Positions 1 to 35,114 of a stretch of 35,635 nucleotides of DNA are shown here, in pieces. Numbering within the stretch: position 1 is the first letter of the stretch; every line of letters starts with the position of its first letter. The notes below the pieces were generated by a model. That model did not search any database, had not been told where the DNA came from, and saw nothing but the letters and a program-made list of their open reading frames with translations. Position numbers and translations under genes: made by a program. This stretch comes from an uncultured Verrucomicrobiota bacterium (GTDB taxonomy: Bacteria > Verrucomicrobiota > Verrucomicrobiia > Limisphaerales > UBA9464): contig CAINWP010000263.1 of NCBI GenBank assembly GCA_903854475.1, positions 1 through 35,635 of the forward strand. Direction: 5' to 3'.

Positions 1-113
1 GAACGGTCCTGCGCTCGCTGAGTAGGCTCTGAGGAGGAGGAGCTTTCGCGCTACGCGCTTGGGGGGATTTGCTGTTCGCCTCCATGGCTCGCTCCGGACC
101 ATTCCCGCTCCGC
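1..113 (+). repeat. Intergenic ~110-bp inverted-terminus repeat, copy A
   Basis: First of five related elements in the window. It begins GAACGGTCC (1-9) and ends with GGACCATTCC (96-105) plus CGCTCCGC, so the ends form an imperfect terminal inverted repeat. The middle carries GAGGAGGAGC followed by the small dyad GCGC-TAC-GCGC and a GGGGG run. The start may be cut off by the window edge. It does not read as a gene and carries no transposase, so it looks like a REP- or MITE-type non-autonomous element. With copy B it fills most of the 336 gene-free bases at the window start. Confidence 0.85.
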
Positions 114-131
114 TGTACGTTTTGGGCCGCG

Positions 132-243
132 GGAACGGTCCTGCGCTCGCTGAGTAGGCTCTAGGGAGGAGGAGCTTTCGCGCTACGCGCTGGGGGATTT
201 GCTGTTCGCCTCCAAGGCTCGCTTCGAACCGTTCCCGCTCCGC
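132..243 (+). repeat. Intergenic repeat, copy B (tandem with A)
   Basis: Near-identical to copy A in the same orientation, separated from it by about 18 bases. Termini are GGAACGGTCC (132-141) and GAACCGTTCC (226-235), matching as an inverted repeat at 9 of 10 positions. The core GCGC-TAC-GCGC is retained. High identity to copy A suggests a recent local duplication; the difference at the 3' terminus (GAACCG against GGACCA) restores pairing with its own 5' terminus. The remaining bases up to 336 show nothing recognisable apart from the leader of the next gene. Confidence 0.85.
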
Positions 244-336
244 CTGGGAGGGCGTTGAGTGGCCTGGTCAGGGTCTTTAGGGCTGCGATGGAAGGGATAG
301 TCTGGACAGCGGTGTCCGGGGAGCGAAAGTAACTGG

Positions 337-2669: not shown

Positions 2670-2735
2670 ACCGGGCGGCGCGCCGAAGGCGACTCTCCTC
2701 ACTCCCCAGAATCGGCTCGGGGTCGGTCCCACCTA

Positions 2736-2762
2736 TTTACACAAAAGGGGACACTATATAAT
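2736..2762 (+). promoter_or_regulatory. AT-rich promoter-like block
   Basis: An AT-rich island in otherwise GC-rich DNA. TTTACA (2736-2741) and a perfect TATAAT (2757-2762) are separated by 15 bases, slightly short for sigma70. A transcript would start near 2769, run through repeat copy C and reach the methyltransferase start at 3015, giving a leader of about 245 bases. Just upstream, GGGGTCGGTCCC (2720-2731) and AAAAGGGGACA (2744-2754) resemble REP-type sequence, so the island could instead belong to an old mobile repeat. Confidence 0.35.
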
Positions 2763-2790
2763 ATACTGATGCCGTTGCAAAGGCTCCGCG

Positions 2791-2903
2791 GGATCGGTCC
2801 TGCGCGTGCTAGGAAGCTCGGGGGAGGAGGAGCTTTCGCGCTGTGCGCGGGGGGAGGGTTTGATCGCTTCCAATGCTCGCTCCGGTCCGGTCCCGCTGCC
2901 GCT
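2791..2903 (+). repeat. Intergenic repeat, copy C
   Basis: Third copy, diverged from A and B but clearly related. Termini GGATCGGTCC (2791-2800) and GGTCCGGTCC (2884-2893) pair at 8 of 10 positions. GGAGGAGGAGCTTTCGCGC is shared with copy A and the core dyad is GCGC-TGT-GCGC. It occupies the gene-free gap 2670-3014 between mnmA and the methyltransferase. The other 200 or so bases of that gap hold only the AT-rich block described separately. Confidence 0.8.
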
Positions 2904-3014
2904 GCGGGTGGGTGCGAGTCTTTAGGAAAGCAGGTGCTTGGATGGCTGCCTTTGGGGGCGATGTTGGGGACGGTGCTTGGCTCAGAGGCGTTTTGGTCGT
3001 ATCAACGATGCCAC

Positions 3015-8613: not shown

Positions 8614-8689
8614 GGGCGGTTGGCGCAGCGGTTAGCGCAAATGCTTTACACGCATTGGGTCGGGGGTTCGAATCCCTCACCGCCTACCA
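8614..8689 (+). tRNA. tRNA-Val (anticodon TAC)
   Basis: A complete 76-base cloverleaf. Acceptor stem GGGCGGT/ACCGCCT starts with a G-T pair. The D arm is GCGC-AGCGGTTA-GCGC. The anticodon stem AATGC/GCATT holds loop TTTACAC with anticodon TAC at 8647-8649. The variable loop is GGGTC, and the T arm GGGGG-TTCGAAT-CCCTC has one G-T pair. Discriminator A is followed by an encoded CCA (8687-8689). TAC reads valine GTA codons (and GTG/GTT when modified). Confidence 0.97.
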
Positions 8690-14057: not shown

Positions 14058-14441
14058 ATGTTCGAGTTTCGCCTCCTTGGCTCATCAAGTCATGCCTGGA
14101 GCGGCGATGTTTTAACCATTGGTCGTGATCCCACCAATGGTTGGGTGTTGGTCTCCCCGGGAGTATGGGGCCGACACGCCGAGATTCAGCGGGGCCCCGA
14201 TGGACGCCTGACGATTCGCAGTCTCGGTGACTCGGTAGTGGCCATCAACGGAGTCGCTGTCCGCGAATCTATCTTGCGGTGGGGTGACGCCGTTTCACTC
14301 GGCGCGACCGTCGCCCGGTTTCATTTAGCTGCACCCACTCAGCGGGGATTATCCGGCTGGGAACGTACCCTGTGGATCACCTTAGGATTTTGCACGGTAG
14401 CCCAGGGAGGTCTTTTGGTGTGGTTACAACGCGGACGCTGA
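14058..14441 (+). CDS. FHA-domain protein with C-terminal membrane anchor
   Basis: A 127-residue protein. Residues about 18-88 form a forkhead-associated fold: TIGRDPTNGWVLV (IGR arginine), WGRHAEI in place of SRxHAxI, then DSVVAINGVAV for the conserved NG turn. FHA domains bind phosphothreonine peptides; here the usual Ser before RH is replaced, so binding may be weakened. The last 25 residues (TLWITLGFCTVAQGGLLVWLQ) form a transmembrane helix with a basic end, so the domain should face the cytoplasm. It lies 94 bases after the Wza-like gene on the same strand. A link to export signalling is only positional. Confidence 0.75.
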   Translation: MFEFRLLGSSSHAWSGDVLTIGRDPTNGWVLVSPGVWGRHAEIQRGPDGRLTIRSLGDSVVAINGVAVRESILRWGDAVSLGATVARFHLAAPTQRGLSGWERTLWITLGFCTVAQGGLLVWLQRGR

Positions 14442-14454
14442 CTTCTGGGACTCC

Positions 14455-14521
14455 GGCTTTAGACGCGATCAAACCAAAGCCAAAAACTGCGGGTTTCTTG
14501 AATTTTCCATGGTGGTTTGAT
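14455..14521. other. Inverted repeat in the FHA/ferritin-like convergent gap
   Basis: ATCAAACCA (14468-14476) and TGGTTTGAT (14513-14521) form a 9-bp inverted repeat with a 36-base spacer. The segment GCGATCAAACC also matches the reverse complement of part of repeat copy C, so this may be a decayed fragment of the repeat family. Nothing else is recognised between 14442 and 14607. Confidence 0.25.
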
Positions 14522-14607
14522 AGCCCCAGCGTCGTTGGGGCAGTGGGCACTGTTTTGGGATGAACTCTGGGTGGGGCGCTGAGCTCACTGGTTTTCCCTG
14601 TCAGGAC

Positions 14608-18938: not shown

Positions 18939-18960
18939 TTAAGGACGCGAGATGGGGGCA

Positions 18961-19076
18961 GCGGGACTGAGCCTACGCCCGCAAGGAAGCTCAGTGAAGG
19001 ATGGAGCTTTTGCGCTCTGCGCGAGGGGTGGGTTTGATTGCATCCAGAGCTTGCTCCGGCCCGGTCCCGCTGCCGC
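18961..19076 (+). repeat. Intergenic repeat, copy D
   Basis: The termini GCGGGACTGAGCC (18961-18973) and GGCCCGGTCCCGC (19058-19070) pair along 13 bases with one mismatch and one G-T pair; the outer seven are perfect. The core is GCGC-TCT-GCGC. It fills a third of the gene-free gap 18865-19213 between divergent terC and the efflux block. The remainder holds the terC leader and about 140 bases upstream of the small membrane protein, in which nothing is recognised. Confidence 0.75.
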
Positions 19077-19213
19077 CGAGTGTCGTCGTGGAAGACTCCA
19101 GCCTGAGACTCCTACGCGCCGTAGTTGCTAGGGCTCCGTGGGAGCGTTGATGGGGACTCTTTGGCAAATGAGGGGTTGCGGTCTCGGGGAATGCCGAAGA
19201 AAGATTTGCGCAC

Positions 19214-19726
19214 ATGGCTGGACGCTCAAAAAGCTCCCATCACGGACCTTGGGTTCGTTGTCTGGCCTTGCTCGGATTGGTTTCTTATCTCGGTGGCATG
19301 GGTTGGTTCATGACCCTTTGTACTGCGGCAGTGGCTGTGGTTGATGGGGAACATTCGGTTCGCATTGAATCCCGGCAGCAGGGTTTTTTTGTGATTCTAG
19401 GGCATGACCGTTCGGCTCAACATCCTGATCGGATTCATTCCCACGACTGGATCGCCGACCTCCTGACTTCGCTGGCGTCGGACTCCCTCACTTCAGGGGG
19501 TGACCATGTCATCGACTTGGACCGAGATCCCGGTCTGGCTGCTCGATCCAGCGAGGCTTCCATCCGTGATTCGATTGCTCGGAATGCGACTGGTTTAGTG
19601 CTTACTGCGTTTCCGCTGCCTGCCGTTGCTCCATCGAGCCGGCCGCACCGTCAGGCCTCTATCGGGGTTCAGTCGACTTTGGCGCCTTCTCTCAGCGTTA
19701 GTCGCATCCACGTGCTCCGCTGCTGA
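19214..19726 (+). CDS. Hypothetical small membrane/periplasmic protein of the efflux block
   Basis: 170 residues, not recognised as a named family. A hydrophobic segment (about residues 14-42, CLALLGLVSYLGGMGWFMTLCTAAVAVV) acts as a signal anchor. The exported part holds several His and Asp (VILGHDRSAQHPDRIHSHDW, then GGDHVIDLDRD), which could bind metal. It sits upstream of the TolC and RND genes (132 bases to the TolC start) on the same strand, where an accessory metal-binding role is plausible but unproven. It is too short, and lacks the beta-barrel/lipoyl/hairpin layout, to be a membrane-fusion protein. Confidence 0.6.
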   Translation: MAGRSKSSHHGPWVRCLALLGLVSYLGGMGWFMTLCTAAVAVVDGEHSVRIESRQQGFFVILGHDRSAQHPDRIHSHDWIADLLTSLASDSLTSGGDHVIDLDRDPGLAARSSEASIRDSIARNATGLVLTAFPLPAVAPSSRPHRQASIGVQSTLAPSLSVSRIHVLRC

Positions 19727-32006: not shown

Positions 32007-33119
32007 ATGAGTTCCAATACTTATCGGATCGCCGCGCTGGCTGGCGATGGCATCGGCCCTGAAGTCATGCGGGAGGCCTTGAGCGTCCTCCGTGCCGTGG
32101 GAGACCAGTTTTCCCTGAAGTTCGACGTCACCGAGGCGCCCGTCGGTTGGGCTGGCATCGACGCCGCCGGCAAGGCCTTGCCCGACGCCACGCTGGAGCT
32201 GTGCCGCCGTTCCGATTCCATTTTGTTCGGCTCGGTGGGCCTGCCCGACCGCGACCCGACCATTCCGAAGGAACAGCGCCCCGAGCGCGCCGCCCTGCTG
32301 CGCATTCGTAAGGAGTTCGGGCTCTTCGCTAACCTCCGCCCGGTGCGCTTGCCCAAGGCCCTGGCCCACGCCTGCCCGCTGCGTCCTGAGCGCCAGGGTG
32401 ACGGCATCGACATCCTCGTGGTTCGTGAACTCACCGGCGGCCTGTACTTCGGCGAGCCCAAGAAGACTGAGGACCTCGGCAATGGCCAGACCCGCGCCAT
32501 CGACACTATGGTGTACACCACCTCGGAGATCGAGCGCATCGCCCGCGTCGGCTTCAAGGCCGCTCAGTTGCGCCGCAAGAAGCTGACCAGCATCGACAAG
32601 GCCAACGTGCTAGAGAACGGCGTGCTCTGGCGCGAGGTGGTCACCCGCATCGCTCCTGAATTCCCCGATGTGGCCCTCGAGCACATGTTCGTCGACAACG
32701 GCGCCATGCAGTTGTTGCTGCGGCCGACCCAGTTCGACGTGCTGCTCTGCGAGAACCTCTTCGGCGACATCCTCAGCGATGAAGCCGCCGCCTTGGCCGG
32801 CTCCCTTGGCATGCTGCCCAGCGCCAGCCTCGGTGCGACGAATGGCCAGCAAACCTTTGGCTTCTACGAGCCCGCCGGCGGCACCGCCCCGGACATCGCC
32901 GGCAAGGACCTCGCCAACCCGATCGCCCAAATCCTCTCCATCGCCCTCATGCTCCGCTACAGCTTCGGGCTCAATGCGGCGGCCGATGCCGTGGATGCCG
33001 CGGTCGGTAAGGCCATCGATCAAGGCCTGCGCACCGGCGACATTTTCTCGGCCAGCGAGGCCGGTGCCCGGCGCGTCGGCACCCGCGAAATGGGTGCGGC
33101 CATCGTCGCGGCCCTGTGA
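32007..33119 (+). CDS. leuB: 3-isopropylmalate dehydrogenase
   Basis: Oxidative decarboxylation of 3-isopropylmalate with NAD in leucine synthesis; cytosolic, 370 residues. GDGIGPEV at the N-terminus, RELTGGLYFG, the catalytic-lysine region TSIDKANVLE and the metal-binding FVDNGAMQL and NLFGDILSDEAA are all present. NLRPVRLP is the usual substrate-binding loop. The ATG at 32007 is preferred over an in-frame start at 31947 that falls in the intergenic gap. It lies 25 bases upstream of the panE-like gene and is probably co-transcribed with it. Confidence 0.96.
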   Translation: MSSNTYRIAALAGDGIGPEVMREALSVLRAVGDQFSLKFDVTEAPVGWAGIDAAGKALPDATLELCRRSDSILFGSVGLPDRDPTIPKEQRPERAALLRIRKEFGLFANLRPVRLPKALAHACPLRPERQGDGIDILVVRELTGGLYFGEPKKTEDLGNGQTRAIDTMVYTTSEIERIARVGFKAAQLRRKKLTSIDKANVLENGVLWREVVTRIAPEFPDVALEHMFVDNGAMQLLLRPTQFDVLLCENLFGDILSDEAAALAGSLGMLPSASLGATNGQQTFGFYEPAGGTAPDIAGKDLANPIAQILSIALMLRYSFGLNAAADAVDAAVGKAIDQGLRTGDIFSASEAGARRVGTREMGAAIVAAL

Positions 33120-33144
33120 GTTTCCCAGCTGTATTTATTCTGCG

Positions 33145-34128
33145 ATGAAGATCGCCGTCATTGGTTGTGGGGCGCTGGGCAGCTACTACGGCGCCCTGCT
33201 GTCCCGTGCCGGACACGAGGTGTGGTTCCAACTCCGGGCCGACCACGACGTCGTGGCCCGCGACGGCGTCCATGTCGTTAGCGACCGAGGCGGCGAGTTT
33301 CACGCCCGGCCGAACTGTGTCCGCGTGCCCGAGTCCGCGGGCGTGGTCGACCTGGTCCTCATCGCCCTGAAGACCACCGCCAACGGCGAGTTTACCCGGC
33401 TGGTTCCCGGCTGGGTCGGGCCGCAAACTGCGGTGCTCACCTTGCAAAACGGCCTCGGCAACGAGGATGCCCTAGCCCGCATCGTACCGCCTCAACGAGT
33501 CTTGGGTGGGTTGTGCTTGGTCAGTCTCAACCGCACGGCCCCGGGACAGATTCGTCACATCGACCTCGGTACCATTTTGCTCGGTGAACACCTCGGCCTT
33601 CCCACCGAGCGCACCTCTTCCCTGGTGGCCGTGTTAGAATCGGCGGGCATTCCCTGCGAAGTTTGCCCTGATTTGCTACAAGCCCGTTGGCGCAAGCTCG
33701 TCTGGAACATTGCCTTCAATGGTCTCGGCGTCGCCGGTTCGGCAGGCCTCGACAGCGTCTCGCACGGGCGATGGCAGCCCGGACAACCCCTTGGCCGAGC
33801 GCTCTCGGCCCAGGATGTTTTGCAAACGCCCGCCTGGCGCGCCCTCGCCCGCGACCTCATGGGCGAGACCATCGCCGTTGCCACCGCCCTGGGTCATCCC
33901 ATCAACCCCGCCCACGCCGACGCCGAGCTCATCCGCACCGTTTCCATGGGTCCCTATCGACCGTCCACGGTCATCGACTTCGAGATGGGTCGACCGATGG
34001 AACTCGACGCCATTTTCTACGAACCCCAGCGCGAGGCCCGCCGTGCTAAAATTCCGACCCCGCGCCTCGACGCCCTCTGCGCCGTCCTCCGATCCCTCGA
34101 AGCCGCCGGAGCACGGCCATCGAAATAA
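33145..34128 (+). CDS. 2-dehydropantoate 2-reductase family (PanE/ApbA)
   Basis: 327 residues. The N-terminal Rossmann motif is AVIGCGALGSYYG, followed by LVLIALKTTAN and LTLQNGLGNED, then the C-terminal helical domain with WRKLVWNIAFN (catalytic Lys) and the SMGPYRPSTVIDFEMGRPMELD signature. The enzyme reduces ketopantoate with NADPH in pantothenate synthesis. Paralogues of the family act on other 2-keto acids, so panE is not assigned outright. It follows leuB by 25 bases and faces leuD. Confidence 0.85.
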   Translation: MKIAVIGCGALGSYYGALLSRAGHEVWFQLRADHDVVARDGVHVVSDRGGEFHARPNCVRVPESAGVVDLVLIALKTTANGEFTRLVPGWVGPQTAVLTLQNGLGNEDALARIVPPQRVLGGLCLVSLNRTAPGQIRHIDLGTILLGEHLGLPTERTSSLVAVLESAGIPCEVCPDLLQARWRKLVWNIAFNGLGVAGSAGLDSVSHGRWQPGQPLGRALSAQDVLQTPAWRALARDLMGETIAVATALGHPINPAHADAELIRTVSMGPYRPSTVIDFEMGRPMELDAIFYEPQREARRAKIPTPRLDALCAVLRSLEAAGARPSK

Positions 34129-34207
34129 CGACGCTCCAGCGCCGTGCCCCCCGCGGTAGATTCGTTTCCCAAAAAGGGTGACGAACCCATGCCTGAAGAG
34201 GTTACCA

Positions 34208-34327
34208 GCGGCAGCGGGCCGGGGCCGGAGCGAGCATAGGAACGTTGACATCCTGATCCCCCTCGCGCGGCCGCGCGAACGCCGAGCCTGTCCCTACGTT
34301 CCCTGCGAGGGCAGGGCCTGACCCGCA
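34208..34327 (-). repeat. Intergenic repeat, copy E (opposite orientation)
   Basis: Reverse-strand member of the repeat family. GCGGGCCGGGGCC (34214-34226) and GGCCTGACCCGC (34315-34326) form the imperfect termini. On the minus strand it contains GCTCGCTCCGGCCCCGGCCCGCTGCCGC, as in copies C and D, and a core dyad GCGC-GGCC-GCGC. It lies in the gap between convergent panE-like and leuD genes. An internal CCCTGC-GAGG-GCAGGG hairpin (34301-34316) could act as a terminator. It is the most diverged copy. Confidence 0.6.
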
Positions 34328-34407
34328 GAGCCCCACCGCCAACGTGCCTCTGAAGAAAACCCCGGCACGGCGTGTGGCGGGATCCCCAGTCCTCAGTTCT
34401 CCTAGGC

Positions 34408-34962
34408 TCAGGCCTTTTGCGCGATCATGCCGCTCTGGCGGGCGTAGTCGAAGATCCCGCCCGCATCGATCACCGGTCGGACCTCGCCCAGGGACTTGAG
34501 CGAATAGCTCTTTCCGGTCCCGTGATGGAGGATGGTCTGGGTGTTGATGTCTACTGTGGCCACATCGCCCGTTTTGAACTGGTCCCGAAGGTTAAATTCC
34601 GTTTCCACCGGATAAATTTCACCCGTCGCCACACAGTTCCGGAAGAAGATGCGAGCGTAACTCTCGGCCACCACGACTTCGCAGTTGGCTGAACCCATCG
34701 CGATAGGAGCATGCTCGCGGGAGCTGCCGCATCCGAAATTCCGGCCCGCGATGATGATAGGAAACTCCGTGTCCAACGCGCCTTCCTTCACAAAGCGTGT
34801 CGTGTAAAGAGAATCGGGCAGCCCCCACAGCGCGTACGCACCCAGCTTCTCGTACTCTTCGGGAATCGTCGGTATCAAGTTAAGGAACTGGGCCGGGATG
34901 ATCTGGTCAGTGTCGATGTTGTCTCCCACCACATAGACTGGCCCCGTGAACGTCGATTGCAT
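34408..34962 (-). CDS. leuD: 3-isopropylmalate dehydratase small subunit
   Basis: Small subunit of isopropylmalate isomerase, 184 residues. The family signatures are present: DNIDTDQIIPAQFL, NFGCGSSREHAP and YARIFFRNC. It works with the Fe-S LeuC large subunit, which is not in the window. ATG 34962 (MQSTFTGP) is preferred over an in-frame TTG at 34998. It converges with the leuB/panE-like pair and diverges from cysI. Confidence 0.95.
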   Translation of the reverse strand: MQSTFTGPVYVVGDNIDTDQIIPAQFLNLIPTIPEEYEKLGAYALWGLPDSLYTTRFVKEGALDTEFPIIIAGRNFGCGSSREHAPIAMGSANCEVVVAESYARIFFRNCVATGEIYPVETEFNLRDQFKTGDVATVDINTQTILHHGTGKSYSLKSLGEVRPVIDAGGIFDYARQSGMIAQKA

Positions 34963-35114
34963 GGCGACAATCTGGCGGACGGGCGTCCCCAGCGGCAAAC
35001 CGAAATTCGGCAGGAACAGCGTTACCCCCGCCAGCGATATCCGCTGCCCCCCAGACTCAACTCTCGCGGATCGAGGGTTCCACCACAGTTTTTAGAGACC
35101 CTCGAAACCCTACT

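Follow-up and report, generated by a model that had tools for sequence, protein, structure and literature searches.

The 35,635 bp contig C263 of an uncultured Verrucomicrobiota bacterium, which constitutes the whole stretch of DNA analysed here (the window), carries five short repeats with inverted termini and belongs to a source genome (G000) of 4.44 Mb in 340 contigs. The locus raises the question of whether these repeats represent a folded RNA or a MITE/REP-like element mobilised in trans, the two options offered by the original prediction. All five repeats belong to one family of probably mobile DNA, with about 80 copies per genome, found in a group of freshwater Verrucomicrobiota; every copy is able to form a long hairpin, and many lie immediately behind the recognition end of a single-copy transposase (RAYT).

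Five copies of a single repeat family

Copy 1 (1-113, plus strand), the left end of which is cut off by the contig start, is the first of a tandem pair with copy 2 (122-252, plus strand), where outer stem arms occur at approximately 129-141 and 227-239 and the central hairpin reads GCGC-TAC-GCGC. Copy 3 (2781-2910, plus strand) is located in the divergent gap between mnmA (minus strand) and an rRNA-methyltransferase-like gene (plus strand), and copy 4 (18954-19084, plus strand) likewise separates two divergent genes, one of the TerC family (minus strand) and the other at 19214-19726 (plus strand). Copy 5 (34200-34333, minus strand), which has a GAACGT-type middle stem, occupies the convergent gap between the genes at 32668-34128 (plus strand) and 34408-34998 (minus strand). 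All five lie outside coding sequence. Their proposed membership of one family is borne out by blastn inside the window, where copies 1-4 match one another at E 1e-5 to 1e-44 and copy 5 is joined to copy 3 at E 1e-9, and by a covariance model built from 35 copies, which recovers all five at E <= 1e-14. The central loops between the GCGC arms (TAC, TAC, TGT, TCT and GGCC) are as first described, but the elements, initially drawn at ~110 bp, measure about 125-131 bp by their window coordinates. A tRNA gene is also found in the window at 8614-8686 (Rfam RF00005, 66.6 bits). At 14436-14588, the relatives G017 and G011 contain approximately 230 bp of extra sequence, the CCCCAACGGGGCGC...GGCGTTCTGAAGGAACGC palindromes of which belong to another type of repeat.

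Distribution and genomic setting of the hairpin family

Searching the source genome with the covariance model revealed ~78 intergenic copies of ~110-130 bp, and the same model was positive in 12 of the 18 other genomes of the genus, with 89, 116 and 67 copies in the well-assembled G017, G011 and G003, respectively, and 27 in G015, all of these counts being lower bounds as contigs often end within arrays. No copies were found by a stricter filter in six congeners (G004, G006, G008, G009, G013 and G014), and outside the genus the model found the element in only one of 77 genomes. This sole extra-genus element (G022, contig C70, L073; 102.8 bits) may possibly derive from horizontal transfer or misbinning. 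The search of the genome and its relatives had been proposed with the original prediction, and the copy number and genus-wide spread leave no room for a family of fewer than ten copies. Besides single copies there are head-to-tail arrays that repeat every ~129-137 bp; the hairpins break MAG assemblies, and several contigs here terminate within such arrays. Integron attC sites were considered for the 132-bp arrays and rejected, given that singletons exist and that neither cassettes nor recognisable boxes are present. Another dispersed repeat (GGTAGGGCGATTTCTCCGAAAGCGCCGCGTC and ACCGGACCGCTCGGAGATTGGTCCCTACC) occurs in many copies beside some elements on several contigs of G017 and G005.

A simple hexamer gene model called both neighbours for 34 copies, of which 16 are in divergent, 15 in tandem and three in convergent settings, and none of the 34 overlaps substantially with predicted coding sequence. 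Within tandem gene pairs, eight copies are on the same strand as the genes and seven on the opposite strand; the strand is random relative to genes. The mostly divergent or tandem setting does not suit a role as terminator or 3'-end stabiliser. The excess in divergent regions sets the family apart from GTAG REPs, which are reported to prefer downstream and convergent positions (Di Nocera et al., 2013; PMC3733652).

Covariation of the hairpin stems

The element is composed of three nested stems, formed by the outer termini, a middle stem and the central GCGC hairpin. The terminal and central pairing had been predicted and stands; the middle stem had been overlooked. RNAalifold by itself yields a mediocre structure because MAFFT shifts the middle arm by one base, and arm-swap tests were used instead. 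A non-redundant set of 98 copies (<92% identical), taken from several species, shows that the two arms of one copy form pairs far better than recombined arms from different copies do (outer stem z -11.6, middle -12.3, central -8.0; controls +1.0 to -3.4). All three stems, not only those first described, therefore co-vary, with middle-stem variants including GGAAGC/GCTTCC, GGAGGC/GCCTCC, GTAGGC/GCCTCC and GGAACGT/ACGTTCC. Hairpin-templated repair could also produce such matching of the arms.

Three co-varying stems, and the greater number of divergent (16) than convergent (3) settings, which places copies in upstream regions, might also be expected of a structured RNA, non-coding or cis-regulatory, that has multiplied within the genome. 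This explanation is nevertheless highly improbable. The outer stem pairs of the 98 copies comprise 1104 Watson-Crick, 36 G.T and 44 A.C pairs, and as RNA would favour wobble, this lack of preference points to a DNA element rather than RNA. A functional RNA was rejected on this parity and on the randomness of the strand. The folded-RNA option of the original prediction is further weakened by the lack of an Rfam match to the element (only the tRNA was found in the window), by the divergent and tandem gene settings and tandem arrays, and by the folding energy of copy 2, which is no better than that of shuffled sequences, a single-sequence fold being an uninformative measure.

A conserved RAYT gene and its terminal repeat

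No Pfam transposase is encoded by the main ORFs of the window, as originally noted, but one exists elsewhere in the genome. Eight Y1_Tnp matches occur in the source genome, one of which, on contig C160, is an intact, single-copy RAYT of 311 aa with the motifs NHFH and YVHLNP (PF01797, 41 bits; NCBIfam REP_Tyr_transpos, 46.9 bits, under its cut-off of 80). A hairpin element ends 91 bp ahead of its start codon. Intact orthologs, one per genome, are encoded in G017, G005, G011, G001, G002, G018, G003 and G012 (98-72% identity), and a dN/dS of 0.05-0.14 (about 0.09) shows the domesticated C160 RAYT to be under purifying selection. The element and the terminal repeat described below are found upstream of the RAYT at L091-L095 (element in G000, G017, G005, G011 and G001), and the element is degenerate or shortened at L096 (G002); RAYT orthologs of 72-80% identity lack the upstream element. 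Because the flanking sequence is common to these loci, the adjacency represents one inherited locus rather than six independent events. A PDB search with the RAYT gave no match, and Pfam did not confirm a C-terminal helix-turn-helix domain. Of the other Y1 genes examined in the source genome, G007, G010, G015 and G016, none is near an element; elsewhere in the Verrucomicrobiota, RAYTs are bordered by terminal repeats of their own but not by the hairpin element. Contigs C332, C67, C236 and others of G000 (L106-L108) carry another RAYT subfamily, the ends of which read GGGGTCAGTTCTTGATATTGATA ... CAATATCAAGAACTGACCCC, with 17 matches in G000, the intact gene among them, and 19 in G008. Mostly broken by stop codons, this subfamily is IS-like and decaying beside the conserved single-copy RAYT.

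In distant Verrucomicrobiota relatives, a ~25-bp repeat starting with GGGGTCAGT or GGGGTCGGT occurs ~45 bp ahead of the RAYT start codon, and at L100, L101, L209, L210 and L233 its inverse is found past the stop codon, making these repeats two-sided. Orthologs in the clade of the C160 RAYT have a 5' repeat only (GGGGTCAG/GGGGTCGG), the 3' repeat kept by relatives having been lost. This 5' terminal repeat matches in sequence a dispersed repeat (REP), the lineage-specific form of which (GGGGTCGGTCCCACCTATTTACAC) is present in 44 copies in the source genome (up to three mismatches), its left boundary being sharply defined at GGGGTC. Precisely those nine genomes that encode a RAYT of at least 72% identity contain 8-47 REPs each, compared with 0-4 in the other ten, and the REP variant tracks the species, as exemplified by CACACATTTACAC in G003. 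Hairpins outnumber REPs by ~2:1. On contigs C222, C60, C211 and C326 (L290, L057, L058 and L297), the junction ahead of several RAYT repeats is doubled in tandem over a short stretch (GCGGGGTC-GCGGGGTC, TCTCGGGG-TCTCGGGG and GACGACGGGGC-GACGACGGGG), perhaps an insertion footprint.

REP-hairpin composites and their proposed mobility

Directly upstream of copy 3, a second repeat that had been overlooked in the window, a REP (GGGGTCGGTCCCACCTATTTACACAAAAGGGGACACT...), occupies 2719-2766 (plus strand), the mapped terminal-repeat copy itself lying at 2719-2742, and is followed by the remainder of the spacer at 2767-2780 (plus strand); the 31-nt spacer as counted starts at ~2750. The region 2719-2910 is thus a REP-spacer-hairpin composite, with the REP as its left end. 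This arrangement is common in the source genome, where for 21 of the 41 mapped REPs an element begins 39-145 nt downstream, in every case on the strand of the REP, against an expectation of 0.11. Among 17 composites, the spacer is exactly 31 nt long in seven and the other spacers fall into a few homologous groups, while the outer flanks are unrelated, with no pair exceeding 70% identity. A shared REP, spacer and hairpin amid unrelated flanks indicates that the composite, the left end of which is the RAYT repeat, spread as one unit and is inherited as such at unrelated sites. There is also a similarity between the hairpin ends (GGGATCGGTCC) and the REP core GGGGTCGGTCC, with at least 9 of 11 positions matching in 69% of left and 50% of right ends compared with 1.4% of shuffles, although this is one similarity seen many times, as the copies are not independent.

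These observations are most readily explained if the family is non-autonomous mobile DNA of REPIN or MITE type that owes its low-rate propagation to a single-copy, domesticated TIRYT-type HUH/Y1 transposase encoded elsewhere in the genome, a reading that we consider likely. The ~78 copies, their genus-wide spread, the covariation and the RAYT repeat at the left end of the composite together lend good support to a MITE/REP-like element mobilised in trans, and the RAYT has probably spread the hairpin repeats. The mobile unit would be directional, with a left RAYT terminal repeat of ~24-50 bp (GGGGTCGGTCCCACCTATTTACAC...), a spacer of 31-79 bp and a right three-stem hairpin of ~115-130 bp. The RAYT would cut and paste single-stranded DNA at such composite units, the hairpin being what it may recognise or protect. 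Hairpin-only copies would descend from composites as partial or derived units, and tandem arrays would stem from local duplication.

The hairpins and the RAYT do not always coincide. G015 (27 hairpins) and G010 (seven) contain neither REPs nor an intact RAYT of the C160 lineage, G007 has many hairpins but few repeats, and its RAYT is 60% identical, and REPs interrupt older hairpins in C129, C63 and at site B of G017. The hairpins may have had a separate history and acquired the RAYT repeat only afterwards. In a rival reading, the hairpin would be a separate MITE or other cruciform repeat, spread by an unrelated transposase (e.g. of the DDE type) or through replication slippage, and it would have become linked to the RAYT repeat only secondarily, as RAYT repeats inserted into or beside it. 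The direct GCTCCGC repeats that flank many copies are consistent with this: at site A (window ~2706-2910), where congeners have zero, one, two or four elements between the same two genes, filled sites often have GCTCCGC on both sides, and G010 has no element and a single GCTCCGC. The flanking GCTCCGC is constant, however, where a target duplication would be site-specific, and no variable target duplication was found. The fixed orientation, discrete spacing (31 nt in seven copies), homologous spacers at unrelated sites and the match of the hairpin termini to the REP core likewise make a separate MITE unlikely.

The empty site A of G010 could represent an old, precise loss; at site C, it is G016 that lacks the element. 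A search for empty sites in the two nearest genomes (G017 and G005), using joined flanks, found every resolved site occupied and only the tandem number different. As the closest genomes share occupied sites, movement must be old or rare; REPINs are stated to persist for millions of years (PMC8049555). The same stability would be expected if hairpin-templated repair, through template switching from arm to arm, kept the pairing in place of selection, in which case covariation would be uninformative on function and the family an inert relic amplified long ago. Such repair would explain the matching arms, but neither the dispersal nor the linkage to REPs, and the RAYT is intact and constrained; the relic explanation thus has very little probability.

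Comparison with known REP and transposase systems

REPs and REPINs with their RAYTs were described by Bertels and Rainey (2011; PMC3116915). Like these, the Verrucomicrobiota family consists of intergenic inverted-repeat hairpins of ~100 bp with compensatory changes, present in tens to hundreds of copies as singlets and tandem clusters, alongside a single-copy RAYT. Two inverted, near-identical REPs with compensatory changes occur within one hairpin (outer and inner stems), copies are extragenic and of high copy number, and the repeat flanks its cognate RAYT, on the 5' side only and at one inherited locus. In contrast to REPINs, the hairpins lack a GTAG/GTGG foot (5' GT[AG]G), the consensus left end being GGGCTCCGCGGGANCGGTCC; their termini vary and co-vary and are less conserved than true REPs, and a distinct, directional terminal repeat is present on one side only. 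As the GTAG foot is missing, the family is not filed as a GTAG REP/REPIN, though it is REPIN-like in its working.

The transposase itself fits the TIRYT type (probably TnpAY1 subclass 2.1, RAYT group 1). TIRtrons, Y1 transposase genes with terminal inverted repeats (Di Nocera et al., 2013; PMC3733652), were tentatively equated with subclass 2.1 by Quentin et al. (2018; PMC6006769), who reported the motifs NH[YF]H and Y[IV]HLNP for this subclass and found no REP-like structures beside its genes. The RAYT has a Y1 HUH core with N-H-F-H and Y-V-H-L-N-P and a C-terminal extension, its terminal repeats start with GGGGTCRG (compare GGGGWSAS), and dispersed copies of these are moderately abundant. 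The relatives at L100, L101, L209, L210 and L233 resemble TIRtrons in having repeats on both sides; the lineage studied here differs in its 5' repeat only and the large co-varying hairpin behind it. With the MITEs of DNA transposons the elements share their short length, non-autonomous nature and terminal inverted repeats, but no variable target-site duplication was found, the internal nested stems co-vary and the linked transposase is HUH/Y1 rather than DDE. What is new here, on the best reading, is a REP-like hairpin system tied to a RAYT of a subclass reported to be REP-less (PMC6006769). More tentatively, and with a chance that we place slightly below even, a subclass-2.1 RAYT may maintain a two-part unit of new design, comprising a directional terminal repeat and a large co-varying hairpin, which has spread and persisted genus-wide, preferentially in divergent promoter regions.

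The biology of REPs and RAYTs has so far been derived mostly from gamma-proteobacterial GTAG-type REPs. The genus offers ~13 species in which the repeat, the hairpin and, in nine species, a conserved single-copy RAYT can be compared, making testable both what subclass-2.1 RAYTs target and the reason for which a repeat that looks selfish endures alongside its transposase.
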